The position numbers were made by a program, and so were the translations under genes. A stretch of 51,376 nt of DNA, from contig JACDGP010000026.1 in assembly GCA_013821605.1 (NCBI GenBank), positions 1 through 51,376 on the forward strand, given 5' to 3'. This stretch comes from Herpetosiphonaceae bacterium (lineage in GTDB: Bacteria; Chloroflexota; Chloroflexia; Chloroflexales; Kallotenuaceae). Below are positions 36,557 to 47,488 of the stretch, in pieces. Numbering within the stretch: the first letter of the stretch is position 1; every line of letters begins with the position of its first letter. A model generated the notes under the pieces. The model was not told where the DNA came from. It ran no database searches and worked only from the letters and a program-made list of their open reading frames with translations.

Positions 36557-36588
36557 AGGGAAATGTTTCATTGAACAACGGAGCATAC

Positions 36589-37035
36589 ATGCCGGACCTT
36601 GAAGAACTACAAGGGCTCCGCGACCAGGGGTTTCGCCTGACTTATCAGCGGCGCCTGATCCTGGAGTGTATCAAAACTCAGACCCATCATGTGAGCGTCG
36701 ACGAGATCTACGCGGATGTCTCACAGCGCTGCCCGGAGATGAACATCGCCACGGTTTACCGGAGTGTGCAATGGCTGCAGAGTGTCGGCTTACTCCGTAA
36801 GTTCAATCTGGGCAAAGAGCCGCTGTTGTACGAGTACGCGGGCTCCCCGATTCATCACCATTTGATCTGTACAACCTGCGGCCATGAGCAGGCCATTGAC
36901 GATCATGTGATGGTCGTCTTGCGCGCGCATGTGCTCGAGCATTATGGCTTTCAGAGCGCGCCAGAGCATCTCGCTATTTTTGGGCAATGTGTCCATTGTC
37001 TCGTAGCGACAGCACCTGCCGCTGTCGCGGTATGA
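36589..37035 (+). CDS. zur: Fur-family metalloregulator, probably Zur
   Basis: 148 residues from ATG 36589 with GGAG 5 bases upstream. Winged-helix N-terminal part (GFRLTYQRRLILECI, VSVDEIYADV, NIATVYRSVQWLQSVGLL), then the Fur metal region: HHHLICTTCGHEQAID with CxxC and a C-terminal CVHC, together a structural zinc site. Regulatory site residues (His-His-His, Asp/Glu) are present. Because the following genes encode a zinc-type ABC importer, Zur is more likely than Fur or PerR. A palindrome at its promoter suggests autorepression when zinc is bound. First gene of a 3.5-kb operon. Confidence 0.9.
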   Translation: MPDLEELQGLRDQGFRLTYQRRLILECIKTQTHHVSVDEIYADVSQRCPEMNIATVYRSVQWLQSVGLLRKFNLGKEPLLYEYAGSPIHHHLICTTCGHEQAIDDHVMVVLRAHVLEHYGFQSAPEHLAIFGQCVHCLVATAPAAVAV

Positions 37036-37061
37036 AGCACCAACAGAAGGAGACCCGTTCC

Positions 37062-38297
37062 ATGCATCAACGTCAGTCACGGTTGGTTCCCTCGCGTCTC
37101 GCCGCTGCCCTTACGACTCTGCTCCTCGTGAGCATGCTGGCCGCCTGCGGGAGCACCACTGCAACAAATTCCTCATCCAGCACCGCACAGGCGGCGACTG
37201 GGGCCACGATGATAGCGGCGACCGCTGCTCCGACCATGAGTACTGCCACCACTGCCGCGACCATGATGGCGGTGGACACAACCACCAGTGGCGCAACGAT
37301 GGCTGCGACCATGAGCGCTGCAACGAGTGCCGCGACCATGATGGCGGCGACGGACACGGCCACGAGCGGCGCAATGATGGCTGCAACCAGCGCATCGACC
37401 GGCAAGAAAATCAAGGTCGTCACAACCGTGGCACCCCTGACCAATATCGTTCGGAACGTCGGCGGCGATCGCATTGATCTGCATGGCATTATTCCAGATG
37501 GCACCGACTCGCATACCTTTGAGCCGGCACCCTCCGATGCCCAGGTGCTGGCCGCTGCGGACCTAATCCTCGTCAACGGTTTGCACCTCGAGTCGCCGAC
37601 CGAAAAGATGGCCAACGCGAACAAACAACCCAACGTCGAGATGGTGCGCTTCGGCGATAACACCATCACGCAGAATGATTGGATCTTTGACTTCTCCTTC
37701 CCCAAGGACAAGGGCGACCCCAATCCGCATCTCTGGATGAATGTCCAATATGCGATGCACTATGCCGAAGTCGCACGCGATGCGTTGATCAAAACGGATC
37801 CCGCGAACAAGGATTACTATACCCAGAATGCTACGACCTTCCTGGCGAAGCTCAAGCAACTCGACGACGGTATCGCCACATCGGTGCAGACCATTCCTGC
37901 AGGTCAGCGCAAGCTGGTGACCTACCACGACTCATGGGCGTATTTCGCTCGACGCTATGGGATGACCGTGATCGGCGCGATCCAGCCTTCTGATTTTGCC
38001 GAGCCGAGCCCCAAAGACGTCGCCAGCATGGTTGACCAGCTGAAGGCTGAGCACGTGCCGGCGCTCTTCGGCTCCGAAGTCTTTCCCAGCAAGGTGCTGG
38101 ATGAGATCGGCAAGGAAGCCGGTGTGAAGTACATCGACACGCTCCGCGACGATGATCCTCCTGGCAAAGCAGGCGACCCGAACCATACCTATATCGGGAT
38201 GATCCTGTCGGATATGCAGGCGATGATCCCGGCGTTGGGCGGCAACATCGATGCGCTGAAGAGTCTTGACCCCGCTGACTCATACGCCAAGAACTGA
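37062..38297 (+). CDS. znuA: ZnuA-like metal-binding lipoprotein with Met-rich repeat linker
   Basis: 411 residues from ATG 37062 (AAGGAG upstream). Lipobox LAAC (Cys29). Residues about 41-113 form a low-complexity Ala/Thr/Ser linker containing ten Met (mostly ATM/MM) encoded by a 75-base tandem repeat. From residue 115 the cluster A-I (TroA/ZnuA) fold follows: KVVTTVAPLTNIV, ligand His151 in SHTFEPAP, His223 in NPHLWMNV, His289 in VTYHDSWAYFARRYG. A third His rather than Glu favours zinc over manganese. An Asp-rich segment (YIDTLRDDD) completes it. It delivers metal to ZnuBC. ZnuA proteins usually carry a His-rich loop; here that element is replaced by Met residues. Confidence 0.9.
   Translation: MHQRQSRLVPSRLAAALTTLLLVSMLAACGSTTATNSSSSTAQAATGATMIAATAAPTMSTATTAATMMAVDTTTSGATMAATMSAATSAATMMAATDTATSGAMMAATSASTGKKIKVVTTVAPLTNIVRNVGGDRIDLHGIIPDGTDSHTFEPAPSDAQVLAAADLILVNGLHLESPTEKMANANKQPNVEMVRFGDNTITQNDWIFDFSFPKDKGDPNPHLWMNVQYAMHYAEVARDALIKTDPANKDYYTQNATTFLAKLKQLDDGIATSVQTIPAGQRKLVTYHDSWAYFARRYGMTVIGAIQPSDFAEPSPKDVASMVDQLKAEHVPALFGSEVFPSKVLDEIGKEAGVKYIDTLRDDDPPGKAGDPNHTYIGMILSDMQAMIPALGGNIDALKSLDPADSYAKN
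37254..37403 (+). repeat. 75-base tandem repeat encoding Met/Ala/Thr linker
   Basis: GCCGCGACCATGATGGCGG recurs at 37254 and 37329, 75 bases (25 codons) apart, and the intervening sequence matches imperfectly (AATMMA..T..TSGA.MAAT). A partial third copy lies upstream. Confidence 0.75.
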
Positions 38298-38340
38298 TGG
38301 GATCGAGACGTTGCGCTCCGTTCCGCCGTTATGAGGATCC

Positions 38341-39228
38341 ATGGAACCGCTGATTAGCTTCAACCACATGACCTGTGGGTACGACGACCAAGCCGTGCTG
38401 GAGGATATTACGCTCCAAATTATGCCCGGCCAATTTGTGGGCCTGGTCGGACCCAGCGGCTCCGGCAAGACGACCCTCCTTAGGACCCTGATGGGCATGG
38501 TGACGCCGGCCGCTGGGAGCGTCGAGGTGTTAGGACAGCGCGTGCAGGGCCGCGCGCCCGCTCGTATCGGCTACGTGCCCCAGTTGGAAACAGTCGATTG
38601 GAATTTTCCGGTCACGGTGGAAGAGGTGGTCCTGATGGGTCGCACGATGCGCTCTGGGATCTGGCCCTGGCCCAACCGCGAAACGCGCGCCCAGATGGCA
38701 ACCATTCTCGACCAGCTCGGCATTGGAGCGTTGGCCAAGCGTCATATCCGCATGCTGTCTGGTGGTCAACAGCAGCGTGTCTTCCTCGCACGGGCGTTGC
38801 TCAGCGACCCGAAGCTACTGCTGCTAGACGAGCCGACGAGCAATGTGGACATCCGGACGCGTGACGAAATCCTCCATCTGCTGGCCGATATTAACCGTGA
38901 CGGCATTGCGGTCGTGCTGACGACACACGAGCTCAACTCGGTCGCCACGCATCTGCCGTGGGTCATCTGTTTGAACCGCGCTGTGATTGCCCAGGGCCGG
39001 CCGAACCATATTTTCACGACGGAGGTGCTGAGCCGGACCTTCAACGCTGAAATGATGGTGATCAAGCAGGGCGATCTGCTGCTCGTCGCCGACCGGCCGC
39101 ATGGCTTTGCGGACCTGGCCGCCAGCAACGCGGGCCTGGAGGATATTATCGCCGACGCGCGACCGGGCACGCGCAAGAGTCACACGCAGACTCACCTACC
39201 GTCCGAGCCGTATCACACCCATCAGTGA
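38341..39228 (+). CDS. znuC: Zinc/manganese ABC transporter ATPase
   Basis: 295 residues. ABC ATPase: Walker A GPSGSGKTT, Q-loop PQLETVDW, signature LSGGQQQRVFLARALL, Walker B LLLLDEPTSNVD, H-loop TTHELNSV. Longer than E. coli ZnuC (about 250) by a C-terminal extension that ends in a His-containing tail (SHTQTHLPSEPYHTHQ), possibly metal-binding. It powers import together with the permease encoded 7 bases later. Starts 43 bases after znuA. Confidence 0.93.
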   Translation: MEPLISFNHMTCGYDDQAVLEDITLQIMPGQFVGLVGPSGSGKTTLLRTLMGMVTPAAGSVEVLGQRVQGRAPARIGYVPQLETVDWNFPVTVEEVVLMGRTMRSGIWPWPNRETRAQMATILDQLGIGALAKRHIRMLSGGQQQRVFLARALLSDPKLLLLDEPTSNVDIRTRDEILHLLADINRDGIAVVLTTHELNSVATHLPWVICLNRAVIAQGRPNHIFTTEVLSRTFNAEMMVIKQGDLLLVADRPHGFADLAASNAGLEDIIADARPGTRKSHTQTHLPSEPYHTHQ

Positions 39229-39235
39229 GAGAATT

Positions 39236-40120
39236 ATGATCGATCTTGTACGTCCCTGGCATTATGCATTCTTTGTCCACGGCATTATTGCTGCGACACT
39301 GGTCGGCGGCCTATGTGGTCTGATCGGTGCTTACGTGGTCTTGCGCCACATGAGCTACATTGGCCACGGTCTGTCCCATGCCATTTTTGGTGGTGCGGTC
39401 GTCAGCTATTTGCTGCAGTGGAACTTCTACATCGGTGCCGGCCTGTATGGTTTCCTGGCGGCGCTGCTGATCAACGCGACGGCGCGCAAACGCCAGATCG
39501 GAGCCGATGCGGCGATCGGCGTCATTACGACCGCCTCCTTCGCCTTCGGCGTGGCGCTGATCAGCCGCGTCCGGCACTTTACGACGAACTTCGAGGCGGC
39601 GCTGTTCGGCAATATTCTCGGCGTGACGACAACCGACCTGTGGGTGATCGCCGGCGTCTCGGCGTTGACGGTGATAGCGCTCTTTTTTTCCTACAAGCAA
39701 ATGCTGTTCACGACCTTCGATCCGGAGGTCGCACCGACCTATGGGGTGCCGACGCAGAAGATGGAAACGCTGTTTGCCCTGATCCTCGCATCGGCGCTGA
39801 TCGCCTCGATGCAGGTGATGGGCGTCACGCTGATCGCGGCAGCACTGGTGATCCCGGCAGTCATTGGCCGCCTGCTGACCGATCGTTTCTCCAAGTTGCT
39901 GCTGCTGACGACGACGATCGGCGCGCTCTGCGGGCTGACCGGCATGTACACCAGCTTCTATATTGATGTCGCCTCAGGCGCGACGATTGTGCTCACGGCC
40001 GCGGCTGTCTTCGCCGTCGTGATTACCATCACGCTGGTGCAGCAGCGCCGGCATGGTCTCAAGGCCGGCCTGGGGAAACAGGCAGTCCTGGTCCAGTCAA
40101 ACGACTCCCATCTTTTCTGA
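39236..40120 (+). CDS. znuB: Zinc/manganese ABC transporter permease
   Basis: 294 residues from ATG 39236; the longer frame overlaps znuC. ABC-3 family: eight or so membrane helices with MSYIGHGLSHAIFGGAVVSY, IGADAAIGVITTASFAFGVAL and the coupling segment FEAALFGNILGVTTTDLW, MQVMGVTLIAAALVIPAVIGRLLTDRF. It forms the channel of the ZnuABC importer. End of the zur-znuABC operon; the convergent kinase gene begins 100 bases further on. Confidence 0.93.
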   Translation: MIDLVRPWHYAFFVHGIIAATLVGGLCGLIGAYVVLRHMSYIGHGLSHAIFGGAVVSYLLQWNFYIGAGLYGFLAALLINATARKRQIGADAAIGVITTASFAFGVALISRVRHFTTNFEAALFGNILGVTTTDLWVIAGVSALTVIALFFSYKQMLFTTFDPEVAPTYGVPTQKMETLFALILASALIASMQVMGVTLIAAALVIPAVIGRLLTDRFSKLLLLTTTIGALCGLTGMYTSFYIDVASGATIVLTAAAVFAVVITITLVQQRRHGLKAGLGKQAVLVQSNDSHLF

Positions 40121-40221: not shown

Positions 40222-41301
40222 TTACTCAGTTCGCCGCACGTGTCGCGAACTGAGTGGGTCGCCGCGCTTCGGCCCATCCCAAGCGCTCGTCGGCTCTTTA
40301 CCACCGCCCATACGAAAGACGTAGTGCTCGGGTTGGGCGAGAAACAGTTCGCGGCAGGCCGGCGTACAGAAGCGGTAGAGTGCACCGCCGTACTCGGCGC
40401 TGATGGCCTCCGGCCCGACCACCATTCCACAGATCGGGTCGCGACCGTCGACGCCAGGGTACGGGATGTGCATGCGGATCGCCGTGCCCTGCCCGGGCTC
40501 GCTCTCCAAGCTGACCTCCCCACCAACCAATGCTGCCCGTTCCCGCATGCCTACTAGACCCCAGCCGGCTCCCACTGGACCCCCGTTGTCCGGCAGCCGA
40601 AAGCCCTGCCCATCATCGGCGATTGTGACCACGAGCGCGTCATGTGTGTACTGGAAACGCAACCAGACATGGGAGGCCCTGGCATGGCGGCGGATGTTGC
40701 TCCAACCCTCCTGGATGATGCGAAATACGGCCAGTTCGCTCTGGAGGTCAAGACGCCGCACTGTCCCCTCCACGATGATTGACACCTCGATCCCGTTATC
40801 ACCGTCTTGTTGAAGGAGCAGCTCCACGGCCGGCAGCAAACCAAGCTCTTCCAGAGCAGGTGGTCGTAGGTCGGCGATCAGCGCACGCAGAGCTTGAACC
40901 GTAGACGTAATCTCGGAACGGAGGGTGATCAATCGTTCCTCTGCCAGCGCTGCATCCCGTGTGAGTGCGCGCTGGACCCGATCAACACCCTGAGCAAGCG
41001 CGATCAGCCGTTGCACAGTGTCGTCGTGCAGCTCACGAGCCAGTCGGCCACGTTCTGTCTCTTGGGCCGTGGTAAGAGCGCCAATATAGGCATGCATGCC
41101 GCTCTGCGCCTGCTCAACATGGGCACCCATTACGTCCAACGCGCGGCGCAAATCCTCAATGTCGTCTGAGCCGCCGACCGGCTGTCCAAGCATGCTGAAG
41201 TCTCCGCGGGTCATCGCCTCGGCGCGGCGCTGCAGTTCGCGTACAGGCTGCCGCTGCGGAGCCCGCCGTTGCCATCTCCGTCGTCGTGTCGCTTGCTCCA
41301 T
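40222..41301 (-). CDS. Cytosolic NarL-type histidine kinase with C-terminal YHS domain
   Basis: 359 residues; GGAGGGAGG 5 bases before the ATG. Arg-rich N-terminus, then a HAMP-like region (about residues 19-63) but no membrane helix, HisKA_3 with phospho-acceptor His92 in ELHDDTVQRLI, an HATPase domain (N-box near Asn202, G1 DDGQGF at 229-234, GLVGMRER) and a YHS domain at 288-328 (DPICGM, YRFCTPAC; Cys291, Cys312, Cys316). YHS domains bind copper or related metals in CopA-type ATPases, so metal binding may control the kinase. The response regulator is directly upstream in the same operon, and copper genes lie divergently. Metal identity is inference. Confidence 0.88.
   Translation of the reverse strand: MEQATRRRRWQRRAPQRQPVRELQRRAEAMTRGDFSMLGQPVGGSDDIEDLRRALDVMGAHVEQAQSGMHAYIGALTTAQETERGRLARELHDDTVQRLIALAQGVDRVQRALTRDAALAEERLITLRSEITSTVQALRALIADLRPPALEELGLLPAVELLLQQDGDNGIEVSIIVEGTVRRLDLQSELAVFRIIQEGWSNIRRHARASHVWLRFQYTHDALVVTIADDGQGFRLPDNGGPVGAGWGLVGMRERAALVGGEVSLESEPGQGTAIRMHIPYPGVDGRDPICGMVVGPEAISAEYGGALYRFCTPACRELFLAQPEHYVFRMGGGKEPTSAWDGPKRGDPLSSRHVRRTE
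40225..40254. terminator. Stem-loop at convergent znuB/kinase junction
   Basis: Perfect 10-base stem CTCAGTTCGC / GCGAACTGAG with a 10-base loop, located in the last codons of the kinase gene and about 100 bases after znuB. No T-run. Confidence 0.5.
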
Positions 41302-41315
41302 ACAGACCTCCCTCC

Positions 41316-41954
41316 TTAGCCGCGCAACTGGATCAGGCCGCGCTGCAAGGCAACCGTCACAGCCTCTGTCCGCGATGCAACAGCAAGCTTGGCGTACGTG
41401 TTGGCAAGGTGATTTTGCACCGTCCGGTCGCTGATCACCAGCTCGACCCCAATTTGTTTGTTGGTGAGGCCGCGTGCAGCCAGGTGGAGGACTGCAAGCT
41501 CTCGATCGGTCAGTGGCTCAGCCGTGGACGGGGATTGGGACGCACGCGCGGCAATTCTTGCCGCGACGCTTGGATCCAGGGTCGACCGACCCATAGCGGT
41601 CGCCCGGACTGCACGCACCACCTCACGCGACTCGGCGGTCTTAAGCACATAGCCGGTGACGCCAGCATCCAGCAGACCAAAGATGTACGGATCCTCATCA
41701 TAGGCGGTGAGTGCCATGACGCGGACCTCGGGCACGAGGCTACGGATGCGCCTTGTCGCCTCAATGCCGGAGAGTCCAGGCATCGCAATATCCATCACTA
41801 CCACATCCGGTCGCAGCACGACCGCCTGGTCCACGGCCTGAAGCCCATCACTCACCTCACCAACGACGGTGATGTCGGGCTCTTCCTCCAGAAACTCTCG
41901 GACCCCTTTGCGGACAACGGCATGATCGTCGGCTAACAATACTCGAATTGCCAT
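41316..41954 (-). CDS. NarL/FixJ-type response regulator
   Basis: 212 residues from ATG 41954 (AAGG 4 bases upstream). Receiver with DD pocket (LLADDHAVVRKG), phospho-acceptor Asp in VVVMDIAMPGLSG, Thr/Lys in ALTAYD and YVLKTAES; LuxR-type HTH (LTDRELAVLHLAARGLTNKQIGVELVISDRTVQNHLANTYAKL). First gene of the operon, followed 14 bases later by the YHS-kinase gene. Divergent from copZ-copA; probably regulates that block. Confidence 0.93.
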   Translation of the reverse strand: MAIRVLLADDHAVVRKGVREFLEEEPDITVVGEVSDGLQAVDQAVVLRPDVVVMDIAMPGLSGIEATRRIRSLVPEVRVMALTAYDEDPYIFGLLDAGVTGYVLKTAESREVVRAVRATAMGRSTLDPSVAARIAARASQSPSTAEPLTDRELAVLHLAARGLTNKQIGVELVISDRTVQNHLANTYAKLAVASRTEAVTVALQRGLIQLRG

Positions 41955-41976
41955 ACTACCTTCTGTGTTTGGCATT

Positions 41977-42044
41977 GTACCAGCACGCGAACTAGGCCAT
42001 TCGGCGCATTGTGCCGGTCATGAGCGCGCGGTATCGTACCAACA
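41977..42044. promoter_or_regulatory. Repeated GTACCA(G/A)CA elements in divergent regulator/copZ region
   Basis: GTACCAGCA (41977-41985) and GTACCAACA (42036-42044) are direct repeats 59 bases apart. The second overlaps GGTA-TCG-TACC (42030-42040), a short palindrome. They could be sites for the response regulator. I could not identify a convincing -35/-10 pair for copZ. Confidence 0.35.
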
Positions 42045-42068: not shown

Positions 42069-42284
42069 ATGACCACACAACAGTTTACCGTTCCCGGCGT
42101 TTCGTGCCAGCACTGCGTCAACGCCATTACCAGCGAGGTCTCCGGCCTCGCGGGCGTGCAGTCCGTCAAGGTCGATCTTGGGAGCAAGCAGGTACGCGTA
42201 GAAGCAGATGGACGGACGTCAACCGACGCCATCGTGCATGCGATCAATGAAGCCGGCTATGACGAGGTTACGGTCCTCAATTAA
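42069..42284 (+). CDS. copZ: Copper chaperone, single HMA domain
   Basis: 71 residues, one HMA fold: FTVPGVSCQHCVNAITSEV with the CxxC copper site, ending AINEAGYDEV. The ribosome site GGAGG is 7 bases upstream. It should carry Cu(I) to the CopA ATPase encoded 55 bases downstream. Small acidic protein, normal length. Confidence 0.93.
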   Translation: MTTQQFTVPGVSCQHCVNAITSEVSGLAGVQSVKVDLGSKQVRVEADGRTSTDAIVHAINEAGYDEVTVLN

Positions 42285-42339: not shown

Positions 42340-44868
42340 ATGATGGCAACCAAACAATTAACCTTACCGGTGACCGGCATGACCTGCGCCTCTTGCGCTG
42401 GACGAATCGAGCGTGGGCTCAAGAAGCTGCCCGGTGTCGCCGGTGCTCAAGTCAATCTGGCGACCGAACAGGCGACCGTGGAGTACGATCCGCAGCAGGT
42501 GCAGCCCCACGATCTGATCACGAAGGTCGAGCAAACGGGCTATGGCGTCATCACCGACCGGCTCGAGTTCCCCGTCACCGGCATGACTTGCGCGTCGTGC
42601 CAGAGCCGCATTGAAAAGGCGCTACGCAAGGTTGAGGGCGTCGTCAGAGCCAACGTCAACCTCGCAACGGAACGGGCCGTTGTCGAGTATGCACCGGGTG
42701 TAGCGGGCTGGTCAACGCTCAAGGCCGCAGTTGAAAGCGCGGGCTATGGTGTGATCGAACCGAGTACAGACGAGCTTGGCGAGCAGGAAGATGGCGAGGC
42801 GACGGCACGCCGTGCCGAGGTGGCCGACAAGTGGCGCCAGCTCATGGTCGCCGTTGCCTTCGGCCTCCCGCTCTTTATCCTCGCGATGGGCCGAGACCTC
42901 GGCTTTATCCATCCTTGGTTGATGGGCGGTGCTCAGCTGACGAGCGGAATGGTGGCAATGACCAGGCCAGCGCGGGAGGACCTGCTGAACTGGCTGTTCC
43001 TGCTGCTGGCGACACCGGTGCAGTTTTTTTCCGGGCGCGACTTTTACGTCAACGCGTGGAAAGCGCTGCGCCATGGCACCGCCAACATGGATACGCTGAT
43101 CGCACTTGGCTCGTCGGCAGCCTATATCTACAGCCTTGCGGTGCTACTGCTGGGTTGGTCCGGCCATGTGTACTTCGAGACGGCCGCCGTCATTATCGCC
43201 TTGATCCTGCTGGGGCGCTTTCTGGAGGCGCGAGCCAAGAGCCAGACGAGCGCCGCAATCAAGAGTTTGATCGGCTTACAGGCGAAAACCGCGCGTGTTC
43301 TGCGTGGTGGAGTTGAAACCGACGTGCCCATCGCCTCGGTCCGGACGGGCGACATTGTGATCGTTCGACCCGGTGAGAAGGTGCCGGTCGATGGTGTCAT
43401 CACGAGTGGCCAATCGACGCTTGACGAAAGTATGCTGACCGGCGAAAGCATGCCGGTCGAGAAACGGGGAGGTGACCCGGTTGTCGGTGCGACGATCAAT
43501 CGCTCCGGGGCCTTCCAGTTCCGGGCAACCCGCGTCGGCAAGGAAACGGCGCTCGGGCAGATCATCCGACTGGTGCAAGAAGCCCAGGGCTCGAAGGCCC
43601 CCGTACAGCTCCTGGTTGATCGCATCGCTGCGGTCTTCGTGCCCGTGGTGATCGGCATCGCGCTGCTGACCTTCGTGGTCTGGTACCTCGCGACGCGCAA
43701 CTTTACTCAGGCGATGATCTTCGCCGTCGCCGTCTTAGTCATCGCCTGCCCCTGCGCGCTGGGACTGGCCACGCCGACGGCGATCATGGTCGGCACCGGC
43801 ACGGGTGCTGAGCACGGTATCCTGATCAAGAATGCCGAAGCGCTGGAACGCGCCAGTAGCCTGACGACAGTCGTTTTCGACAAGACCGGCACAATCACGG
43901 AGGGCCAGCCTGCGGTCACCGACCTCGTGAGCACAAGCAGTGACGATGACCTCCTCCGATTGGCAGCGAGCGTGGAGCGCAACTCTGAACATCCTTTAGG
44001 CGAGGCGATTGTGCGGGCGGCGCAAGCGCGCCAATTAACACTGGCGCAGCCCAATGGCTTCGAGGCACTGGCCGGCCATGGGGTGCGTGGCGACGTTGAT
44101 GATCGTCATGTCCTGATCGGCTCCCCACGACTGATGCAGGATCGTGGCATCGTGCTTGGCGCGCTGGAAGGCGACATCGCACGCCTCCAGGGTGAAGCGA
44201 AAACGGTCGTGGTCGTGGCGGTCGATGACCTAGCGTTGGGGCTGATCGGGATTGCCGATCCCGTGAAGGCCACATCGGCGGCGGCTATCACCGAGTTGAA
44301 GCGCATGGGGCTGCGCGTGGTGATGCTGACGGGCGATAACCGCCGTACTGCCGAGGTCATTGGCCAACGCGTTGGGCTTGGGTCCGAGGAGGTCCTGGCC
44401 GAGGTGCTACCGGAGACGAAGGCGGCCGAAGTCCGGCGCCTTCAAAGCACCGGGCAGGTCGTGGCAATGGTCGGTGATGGCATCAACGATGCGCCAGCAC
44501 TGGCTGCAGCCGACATTGGCATCGCGATGGGTACCGGCACCGACGTGGCGATGGAGACGGCGAGTGTCACACTCTTGCGCGGCGACCTCCGCTCTGTTGC
44601 AGAGGCGATTGCGCTCTCGAAGCGCACAATGCGCACGATCCGCTGGAATCTATTCTGGGCCTTCATCTACAACGTGATCGGGATTCCAATTGCGGCTGGC
44701 CTGTTCTATCCCCTGACCGGCCTGCAACTCTCACCGATGATTGCCGCCGGCGCGATGGCCTTTTCGTCGGTCTTTGTGGTCACCAATTCGCTCCGCTTAC
44801 GTCGGAGCCAACTGGAAGTACCACAGGCGGCGGATCCACAGCCCGCGCTCAAGGCTCAGGGTATTTAA
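42340..44868 (+). CDS. copA: Cu(I)-exporting P1B-1 ATPase with two HMA domains
   Basis: 842 residues. Two N-terminal HMA domains, each with GMTCASC (about residues 5-70 and 77-143). The transport motif in TM6 is CPC (Cys470-Pro-Cys472) in [12 protein letters not shown], the phosphorylation site DKTGT (Asp514), the SEHPLGEA nucleotide site, and [22 protein letters not shown]7 has N......YN (NLFWAFIYN) and TM8 MAFSS, all typical of Cu+ P1B-1 pumps. It expels Cu(I) from the cytoplasm; CopZ is the likely donor. It is followed 10 bases later by a cupredoxin lipoprotein that may accept the exported copper. The start is the first of two ATGs. Confidence 0.96.
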
Positions 44869-44878
44869 GGAGGAAGGT

Positions 44879-45307
44879 ATGTGCAAACGAGTACTACAGA
44901 ACATGATCGGGATGCTGTTGCTCGTCCTGGTCAGTAGCTGTGGCGCGACTGGAGCATCTACGCAGTCGGTAGGGTCCAAAGCGGACGTCCAAATACGGCT
45001 TGCGGACTTCAGCATTGCATCATCGCGGACGACTCTCACACCGGGCGTACCGTATCACCTGGTGGTGACGAATGCGGGAACGACAGTGCATGAGTTAATG
45101 CTGATGCCGCCGATGGCCATGGGCAGTATGCCGATGGATCAAATGGATAAGCTGGCAATCGTCGCGATCAGCAACGTGGCCCCCGGCACAACCAAGACGC
45201 TGGACGTGACCATTCCGTCCTCCGCGACGACCGGCCCGTTAGAGTTTTCATGCCACCTGCCGGGCCATTACGAGGCCGGCATGAAGCTGGCGGTGAGCGT
45301 CCAGTAG
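44879..45307 (+). CDS. Cupredoxin-like lipoprotein
   Basis: 142 residues with a lipoprotein signal (LLVLVSSC, Cys about 21) and AAGGAGG at the start. Plastocyanin/azurin-like fold: VVTNAGTTVHELML with the first His, and FSCHLPGHYEAGMKL with the Cys, His and Met of a type 1 copper site. A Met-rich segment (MLMPPMAMGSMPMDQMD) could hold additional Cu(I). It sits outside the membrane and may receive copper from CopA or protect the envelope. Between the two ATPase genes, in the same direction. Confidence 0.9.
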   Translation: MCKRVLQNMIGMLLLVLVSSCGATGASTQSVGSKADVQIRLADFSIASSRTTLTPGVPYHLVVTNAGTTVHELMLMPPMAMGSMPMDQMDKLAIVAISNVAPGTTKTLDVTIPSSATTGPLEFSCHLPGHYEAGMKLAVSVQ

Positions 45308-45325: not shown

Positions 45326-47488
45326 ATGGAACATGATCATCGAGCCCATGAGCTACCGCTGGTAGCTACCTCTACTGCCTCCATGCCGATGGAGCCTACA
45401 GACCATGCCGGGATGAAGCACGACATGACCGGCGACCAGGGTGGGCACGGGGGGATGAAGCACGACATGTCTGATCCAGGGATGGCGGCAGCGATGGAAC
45501 GTGACATACGGACCAGGTTCTTCATCGCGCTGTTCCTGACCATCCCGACGGTGCTGTACTCGCCCCTTGGTGTGCGACTGCTAGGGATGGCCTTGCCCAC
45601 CTTTGGACTGGGCGCGAACCTGATCATGCTCGTCTTCTCGACGCCAGTGATCTGGTACTGTGGCTGGATGTTCATCGCGGGTGCCTATCATGCGCTTCGC
45701 CTAAGGCAGTTGGACATGAGCGTGCTGATCGCGACCGGCGTGCTCGCGGCCTACCTCTTCAGTCTCTTGATCACCGCGCTGGGCGGGGACACCTTCTATG
45801 ATGCGGCGGCGATGCTCGTCACGTTCGTGCTTTTCGGCCACTGGATGGAGATGCGCTCGCGTAAGGGCACGAACGACGCGCTGCGCGCACTCTTCGACCT
45901 CGTGCCACCGCAGGCGACCGTCATTCGCGCCGGTCAGGAGTTGACGATCCCCAGCGCTGAGGTGGTGGTTGACGATATGGTGCTCCTCCGTCCCGGTGAC
46001 AAAGTGCCCGTCGACGGTGCGGTCGTCACGGGTGAAACCAGCATCGACGAAGCGCTAGTAACGGGCGAGAGTGCACCGGTCACCAAGCGACCGGGCGACC
46101 CGGTCATTGCGGGCTCGATTAACCGCAGTGGCAGCATCCGCTTCCGTGCGACGCGCGTGGGTGCCGATACGACACTGGCCCAGATCGTCGATCTAGTGCG
46201 GCGGGCCCAAAGCTCGAAGGCGCCCGGCCAGCGGCTGGCCGACAGCGCAGCGCAGTATCTGGTGATCCTAGCGGTTGGCGCGGGTATTCTGACCTTTCTC
46301 GTATGGTTCTTCGTCGGTCGCGTACCGGCGATCACCGCGCTGACCTTTGCGATCTCGGCCGTAGTGATCGCCTGCCCCGATGCGCTGGGGCTCGCGACGC
46401 CAACGGCGGTTGCGGTAGGTACGGGCATCGGTGCGCGCTACAACATCCTGATCAAGGACGCGGCGACGCTCGAAAATATCTCGCGTATCACGGCGATCGT
46501 GCTCGATAAGACTGGGACGCTGACCGAAGGCAAACCCGCTCTGACGGATGTCGTTGCCGGTGGCGCTGTGGATCAAGTGGAGTTGCTCCGCCTTGTGGCT
46601 TCTGCGGAACGTGGCTCGGAGCATCCGCTGGCTGAGGCAATCGTCGCCGGTGCCCAAGAACGGGGCATCCCGCTGGCTGAGGCTACGACCTTCGACTCGG
46701 TTGCCGGTCATGGCATCCTGGCGACTGTAGATGGTCGTAGCATGCTGGTCGGCAATCGCGCACTCATGCGTGATCGCGACATGATGCTTGGGCCACTTGC
46801 AGCGGCAGCAGCGGAACTCGCACAGGCTGGGAAGACGCCGATGTTCGTGGCAGTGGATGGCCAGATAGCCGGCCTCGTGGCAGTGGCCGACCGCATCAAA
46901 CCGAGCGCGAAACAGGCGCTTGCCGAATTCAAACGTTTGGGCATTGAGGCCGTGATGATCACCGGCGACAACGAGCGAACCGCTCAAGCAGTCGCCCACG
47001 AGCTAGGGATCGACCGTGTCTTTGCCGAAGTCTTACCCGCCGACAAAGCCCGCCACGTGCAGGAACTGCAGCGTGAAGGCAAGCGCGTGGCGATGGTAGG
47101 TGATGGCGTCAACGATGCCCCAGCCCTCGCGCAGGCCGACATTGGCATCGCCATTGGGGCTGGGACGGATGTGGCAATAGAGACCGCGAACGTGGTGCTG
47201 ATGAAGAGCGATCCGCTAGACATCATCCGCGCACTTGTGCTTTCGAAGGCGACCGTGCGCAAAATGAAGCAGAACTTGGCCTGGGCCTCGGTCTACAACA
47301 TCTTGGCGATCCCGGTGGCGGCCGGCGTGTTCTACCCATCCTTCGGCATCGCGCTAGCACCGGAGTGGTCGGCGCTGCTGATGTCACTGTCATCGATCAT
47401 CGTCGCCGTCAACGCCGTGCTACTGAAGCGCGTGGAGCGCGTGCTGCGGGTGATGCCCGGCGCTGGCAGTGGAGCAGCCGCGCGGTAA
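45326..47488 (+). CDS. CopB-like P1B-type ATPase with CPD transport motif
   Basis: 720 residues. No HMA domain; instead a His/Met-rich N-terminus (seven His in the first 46 residues, e.g. DHAGMKHDM and GGHGGMKHDM), as in CopB pumps. Catalytic motifs DKTGT (Asp394), SEHPLAEA and GDGVNDAPALAQADIGIAIG are intact. The TM6 metal motif reads ACPDALGLATP (Cys350-Pro-Asp352), where CopB has CPH and CopA has CPC. TM7 (NLAWASVYN) and TM8 (MSLSS) resemble Cu+ types. One base change (GAT versus CAT) separates CPD from CPH. Ion specificity cannot be called with confidence; copper or silver is likely from context. Last gene of the copper operon. Confidence 0.9.
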   Translation: MEHDHRAHELPLVATSTASMPMEPTDHAGMKHDMTGDQGGHGGMKHDMSDPGMAAAMERDIRTRFFIALFLTIPTVLYSPLGVRLLGMALPTFGLGANLIMLVFSTPVIWYCGWMFIAGAYHALRLRQLDMSVLIATGVLAAYLFSLLITALGGDTFYDAAAMLVTFVLFGHWMEMRSRKGTNDALRALFDLVPPQATVIRAGQELTIPSAEVVVDDMVLLRPGDKVPVDGAVVTGETSIDEALVTGESAPVTKRPGDPVIAGSINRSGSIRFRATRVGADTTLAQIVDLVRRAQSSKAPGQRLADSAAQYLVILAVGAGILTFLVWFFVGRVPAITALTFAISAVVIACPDALGLATPTAVAVGTGIGARYNILIKDAATLENISRITAIVLDKTGTLTEGKPALTDVVAGGAVDQVELLRLVASAERGSEHPLAEAIVAGAQERGIPLAEATTFDSVAGHGILATVDGRSMLVGNRALMRDRDMMLGPLAAAAAELAQAGKTPMFVAVDGQIAGLVAVADRIKPSAKQALAEFKRLGIEAVMITGDNERTAQAVAHELGIDRVFAEVLPADKARHVQELQREGKRVAMVGDGVNDAPALAQADIGIAIGAGTDVAIETANVVLMKSDPLDIIRALVLSKATVRKMKQNLAWASVYNILAIPVAAGVFYPSFGIALAPEWSALLMSLSSIIVAVNAVLLKRVERVLRVMPGAGSGAAAR

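Follow-up and report, generated by a model that had tools for sequence, protein, structure and literature searches.

A soluble histidine kinase with a C-terminal YHS domain in Chloroflexales, a candidate cytosolic copper sensor

The known readers of cytosolic copper in bacteria are one-component regulators such as CsoR, CueR and CopY, and copper two-component systems read the periplasm, through membrane kinases of the CusS, PcoS and CopS kind that work with OmpR-type partners. Histidine kinases of the DesK, NarX and LiaS-VraS type are membrane-bound or carry other sensors, and the HDxxxQ motif of these HisKA_3 kinases serves phosphatase activity. Copper can also be read by YHS/TRASH domains: an adenylyl cyclase of Mycobacterium phlei, which has a C-terminal YHS domain attached through a linker of 8 residues, is activated by 1-10 uM Cu2+ and is unresponsive to Zn, Fe, Cr, Co and Ni, and its catalytic domain alone has no Cu activation (PMC4626032). 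In the archaeon Pyrococcus furiosus, the TRASH-containing regulator CopR is encoded divergently from copA (PMC7830388).

Here, we describe a locus within a 51,376-nucleotide stretch of Chloroflexales DNA (the window), in which a histidine kinase ends in a YHS domain and lies beside a copper efflux operon. An earlier note on this DNA had presented the YHS domain as one known from P1B ATPases; the domain itself is real, but copper-sensing YHS/TRASH domains were already known beyond these ATPases (PMC4626032, PMC7830388).

The kinase and its genomic surroundings

The features of the locus are collected in Table 1. The HisKA_3, HATPase_c and YHS (PF04945) matches of the kinase exceed the Pfam cut-offs of 24, 26.4 and 30.3 bits, respectively, and the phosphoacceptor histidine, the N box and the G boxes are all present, which bears out the description of the protein as a NarL-type kinase with a C-terminal YHS domain. 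The HAMP-like stretch that had also been described is present in all orthologues, but its score of 21.0 bits stays under the Pfam cut-off of 25 bits, and the protein does not count as a HAMP-containing kinase.

Table 1. Features of the YHS kinase locus, with positions in the window
Feature	Position	Strand	Basis
Soluble histidine kinase with C-terminal YHS, 359 aa	40222..41301	-	ORF and Shine-Dalgarno, Pfam
HAMP-like N-terminal stretch, residues 18-63	41113..41250	-	Pfam HAMP 21.0 bits, under cut-off 25
HisKA_3 dimerisation/phosphoacceptor domain, residues 83-150; His92, H-D-x-x-x-Q (92-97)	40852..41055	-	Pfam 50.6 bits
HATPase_c ATP-binding domain, residues 189-281	40459..40737	-	Pfam 46.5 bits; Foldseek to VraS 4gt8, DesK 3ehg
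YHS domain, residues 288-328; putative metal ligands D288, C291, C312, C316	40318..40440	-	Pfam 36.6 bits
NarL/LuxR-type response regulator (Response_reg and GerE)	41316..41954	-	Pfam 93.4 and 69.8 bits; mechanical ORF reaches 41975
Conserved promoter motif TAGGCCATTCGGCGCAT, proposed response-regulator operator	41993..42009	+	Sole exact match in genome; kept in fusion genomes
-35-like TTGTGC, 17 bp from -10	42009..42014	+	Sequence; TTGT kept in the family's copZ promoters
-10-like TATCGT, 39 bp downstream of motif start	42032..42037	+	Sequence; spacing kept
copZ, copper chaperone (HMA domain)	42069..42284	+	Pfam HMA 58.8 bits; NCBIfam TIGR00003 65.5, cut-off 62
copA, Cu+ P1B-1-type ATPase, two HMA domains	42340..44868	+	TIGR01511 648.9 bits, cut-off 397
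Cupredoxin-like lipoprotein	44879..45307	+	Copper-bind 16.3 bits, under cut-off; sequence
Second Cu-ATPase (copB), His/Met-rich N-terminus, CPD in TM6, P1B-3-like	45326..47488	+	TIGR01511 585.1 bits; CPD motif

The kinase is soluble, as had been claimed. Its Kyte-Doolittle mean over 19 residues reaches a maximum of 0.98, and 0.19 in the N-terminal part, values too low for a membrane helix, and hydropathy likewise gave no helix in ten orthologues (11 family proteins in all). The two membrane helices and periplasmic sensor domain of the CusS type were accordingly found in none of these 11 proteins. Since the ATG at 41301 follows the regulator stop directly, after 14 bp, and is preceded by the strong Shine-Dalgarno sequence AAGGAGGGAGG, it is unlikely that an N-terminal membrane domain is missing from the gene model.

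The YHS domain, the only one in the 5.9-Mb genome, begins about seven residues past the last strand of the ATP-binding domain and holds one Asp and three Cys as its putative ligand set, with the C-x20-C-x3-C spacing of YHS/TRASH domains; the numbering of the three cysteines in the earlier note is correct. The full-length AlphaFold model of the kinase is weak (pLDDT 67) and was taken for the core fold only, and a model of the ATP-binding and YHS domains together reached a pLDDT of 82 and a pTM of 0.67. In the latter, the ATP-binding domain is DesK/VraS-like (Foldseek: 4gt8, 3ehg), and a beta hairpin and two helices come after it. Sequence comparison of the YHS part with solved structures points, at weak E-values, to segments of phenol and toluene monooxygenases as its closest relatives. 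Past the YHS domain, the window kinase continues for about 28 residues at its C-terminus (window 40222-40306), a tail that is missing from the orthologues.

The kinase and the LuxR/NarL-type regulator share one operon, divergent from copZ, copA, the weakly matching cupredoxin gene and copB, so that both statements of the earlier note on gene arrangement stand. For the regulator, the start at 41954 given there is better supported than the mechanical ORF start at 41975, because the orthologues open with MAIRV or MSIRV and GAAGGT precedes this ATG. In the second Cu-ATPase, CPD replaces the CPH or CPC of TM6, a variant that also occurs beside the YHS kinase at another locus (L090); for three ATPases of rhizobia, CPD has been described as an atypical P1B-3 subtype (PMC5552934). 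The kinase gene is followed directly downstream by genes for a regulator of the Fur family and an ABC transporter operon of Znu/Mnt type (36571-40120), the solute-binding protein of which has a long low-complexity stretch rich in Ala, Thr and Met.

CsoR (PF02583) was found in 75 of the 82 genomes of the order, and five of the seven genomes without it come from the family of the window. Within that family, five of six genomes, including the window genome, are without CsoR and all six have the kinase-YHS fusion; outside it, fusion and CsoR coexist. Control of copZA by CsoR in the window genome was rejected for want of a PF02583 match. The copZA genes here are therefore without CsoR, and the sole regulator beside them is the partner of the YHS kinase.

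Distribution of the fusion and of a shared promoter motif

The occurrence of the architecture was surveyed with a family profile covering the last 81 positions, from the G2 box to the YHS domain, in 158 genomes of the class. Kinase-YHS fusions were found in 13 genomes, all of them Chloroflexales: 13 full-length fusions in 12 genomes and one fusion at a contig end (G422). The full-length fusions had E-values of 4e-46 to 2e-42, and G422 aside, the next matches, to YHS or kinase alone, began at 2e-12. Every one of the six genomes in the window's family carries it, as do three genomes of the next family and four of a third. Within Chloroflexales the distribution is patchy, and in one genus one species has the fusion and others do not. 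Among 400 genomes drawn from the phylum Chloroflexota, fusions were again confined to Chloroflexales members.

A wider scan of 84,980 species genomes with near-exact peptide patterns, which divergent fusions would escape, gave nine fusion loci, all of Chloroflexales type, including Kouleothrix aurantiaca (LJCR01000034.1) and Chloroflexales MAGs; outside Chloroflexales the scan, which is shallow beyond Chloroflexota, turned up none. Most of the remaining YHS matches that were inspected belong to P-type ATPases, efflux subunits, permeases and unrelated proteins, and one locus was without a YHS frame. A tblastn search of plasmids gave no fusion. YHS ORFs of about 340 aa elsewhere in the phylum (L032-L051), considered as further fusions, were rejected as none matched the kinase; they represent a frequent, separate YHS architecture of Chloroflexota. 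One locus in another phylum (L106) resembles a permease with a C-terminal YHS domain.

In the 13 full-length orthologues, R-D-P-x-C-x-M and R-F-C-x-x-A-C of the YHS domain are invariant (D288, P289, C291, M293, F311, C312, A315 and C316), which places the fusion beyond chance. Equally invariant are the catalytic residues His92, Asp93, Gln97, Asn202, Asp229/Gly231 and those of the G boxes. An orthologue of the regulator (65-76% identity) adjoins the kinase at the other fusion loci wherever the contig reaches, and a Cu-ATPase lies within about 5 kb at six of 13 fusion loci. Within the window's family, no genome but that of the window has the kinase-regulator pair next to copA.

In fusion genomes, the upstream regions of copZ and copA have in common a 17-bp motif, TAGGYNATNYRGCGSRT, which starts 38-39 bp before a TAnnnT -10 box. 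Its sole exact copy in the 5.9-Mb window genome lies between the regulator and copZ, and exact matches occur at most copA/copZ loci of fusion genomes. The motif was spotted by eye on the very promoters that make up the greater part of the positive set, and the independent part of the test consists of genome-wide scans, held-out sites and fusion-free genomes. When the 158 genomes were scanned, the composite of motif and -10 box was found at copper genes (copZ/copA) in 10 of the 13 fusion genomes; the same pattern occurred in seven of 145 fusion-free genomes, in no case at copper genes and always in coding sequence or at unrelated genes. At 30 copA loci from 30 fusion-free Chloroflexales genomes the motif was absent, the best candidates within 700 bp having at least three mismatches. 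The reversed pattern gave four matches in 158 genomes, and a chance origin was rejected on this count and on the nature of the fusion-free matches. Fisher tests gave p = 4e-8 for the copA set and p = 1e-13 for the 158 class genomes, values that are uncorrected for relatedness and, the genomes being related, overstate independence.

Three sites outside the derivation of the motif were found at copZ or copA (G429:C890, G422:C1147 and G414:C225). The CsoR-linked copA genes of the fusion genomes G400 and G429 have no motif promoter, nor has the copA on G412:C6. G400 and G401 belong to one genus; the former, with the fusion, has a degenerate site, and the latter, without the fusion, has none. The fusion genome G428 likewise has only degenerate sites, and G420 has the fusion, yet no close copA relative and no motif at copper genes. 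All motif targets in fusion genomes with a proper -10 box and in non-coding sequence are at copper clusters, bar one weak site in G412. Lying upstream of the -35 region, the motif would be in the place for an activator, unlike MerR-type operators, which sit between -35 and -10. Autoregulation of the regulator is unsupported, as most regulator upstream regions are without the motif.

A third motif site in G309 precedes a frame in a copper cluster (L226:103-664, G309:C22) that by eye is DUF305-like. The frames of this cluster resemble, again as read by eye, a DUF326-like four-helix protein of the copper-binding kind and a protein like DUF305; a wider copper regulon is possible. The motif and -10 box also occur with the same spacing before an EamA-like permease gene in G442, G443 and G444 (L240-L242), fusion-free genomes of another order, and these conserved sites are probably unrelated to the YHS kinase system.

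A proposed copper response and competing explanations

The tie of kinase and regulator to one promoter signal before copper-export genes across 158 genomes makes it most likely that the kinase senses intracellular copper and switches on export. We put the probability of a cytosolic copper-sensing two-component system, leading from the YHS kinase through the NarL-type regulator and the motif to activation of copZA, at roughly 0.7. The kinase would be soluble and dimeric, and of the DesK/NarX (HisKA_3) type. Copper in the cytosol, probably as Cu(I) and either free or from CopZ, may bind D288, C291, C312 and C316 of the YHS domain and tip the balance of kinase and phosphatase activity in favour of phosphorylating the neighbouring regulator; the sequence by itself points to no particular metal. 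Once phosphorylated, the regulator would bind TAGGYNATNYRGCGSRT, immediately 5' of the -35 region, and activate copZ-copA(-cupredoxin-copB), in place of CsoR in this lineage. The cytoplasmic metal-sensing two-component system envisaged in the earlier note thus gains support from the co-occurrence of motif and kinase, the absence of CsoR and the paralogue control, with metal binding and its effect on the kinase as putative elements. We also lean, slightly, towards the view that a Chloroflexales lineage has swapped CsoR for such a soluble system, in which a kinase with a C-terminal YHS domain reads cytosolic copper and a dedicated operator lies upstream of copZA.

The copper genes could be regulated via the motif and the YHS domain nevertheless read zinc, silver, gold, mercury or thiol oxidation, or copper only as a complex with CopZ. 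The metals of YHS/TRASH domains do vary, with Cd in L24e and none seen in toluene-4-hydroxylase (PMC4626032), and the Znu-type ABC operon with its Fur-family regulator directly flanks the other side of the kinase; however, no Znu-type genes were seen beside the orthologues, the motif targets keep to copper clusters apart from the weak G412 site, and the M. phlei YHS domain answered Cu alone and not Zn, Fe, Co, Ni or Cr (PMC4626032). We regard such a different input as unlikely. A structural role of the YHS domain, as zinc knuckle or docking surface, with the true sensing left to the HAMP-like N-terminus or to the redox or energy state, seems to us very improbable: every orthologue found keeps the fusion and the N-terminus has neither a membrane helix nor a recognised sensor domain, even though all orthologues keep the HAMP-like stretch and some YHS-like domains are metal-free in crystals (PMC4626032).

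A further explanation concerns the link between regulator and operator, where motif and kinase are tied by genome co-occurrence and binding by the regulator is predicted. Across three families, and even within one genus (G400 vs G401), the motif goes with the fusion, its only exact site in the window genome falls in the regulator-copZ intergenic region, CsoR is absent from that genome, and the position upstream of -35 departs from that of MerR-type operators between -35 and -10. These points argue against a different, co-inherited transcription factor binding the motif, with the kinase-regulator pair in control of other targets and lying near copper genes as a by-product. This explanation is distinctly unlikely in our judgement, albeit in keeping with the predicted nature of the binding and with the pair and copZA being unlinked in the other genomes of the window's family. 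Under the preferred reading of a copper-sensing kinase, the unlinked pair in the family, G420 without a target and the degenerate G400 and G428 sites leave room for other inputs or targets.

Comparison with known systems

The component parts are of known kinds, and the combination of YHS domain and kinase, together with its target signal, appears undescribed. No paper naming both a YHS domain and a histidine kinase was found in the searched literature, the thin coverage of which in subscription journals makes this weak evidence of novelty. If the proposed function is true, a soluble kinase reading cytosolic copper would be a new input route and the YHS/TRASH copper-sensing module would gain a second signalling output. 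The sensor would be joined straight to the ATP-binding domain, a position in which any influence on catalysis is measurable, and the predicted operator opens the claim to direct testing.

The kinase is neither of the CusS type nor a regulator of the CsoR/CueR type. With CsoR and CueR it would share cytosolic copper sensing and control of copZA, but these are one-component regulators and not a kinase-regulator pair, and CsoR (PF02583) is absent here. Two-component control of copper genes would liken the system to CusS, PcoS and CopS, which are membrane kinases for periplasmic copper with OmpR-type partners, whereas the present kinase is soluble and has a NarL-type partner. The core fold (DesK 3gig, VraS 4gt8), the HDxxxQ motif and the NarL-type partner are those of the HisKA_3 kinases DesK, NarX and LiaS-VraS, which are membrane-bound or carry other sensors and none of which was found with a YHS domain. 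Archaeal CopR would resemble the system in its TRASH/YHS-type copper sensor and in the cytosolic control of a divergent copper ATPase gene; it is a one-component DNA-binding protein (HTH and C-terminal TRASH), and here sensing and DNA binding would be split between kinase and regulator. The M. phlei class IIIc adenylyl cyclase (Linder 2015, PMC4626032) yields cAMP, has no known target operon and belongs to a group to which the kinase is unrelated; like the kinase, it is a cytosolic signalling enzyme with a single C-terminal YHS domain on a short linker, and the proposed ligands of this copper-switched enzyme, one Asp and three Cys, recur as the putative ligand set of the kinase.
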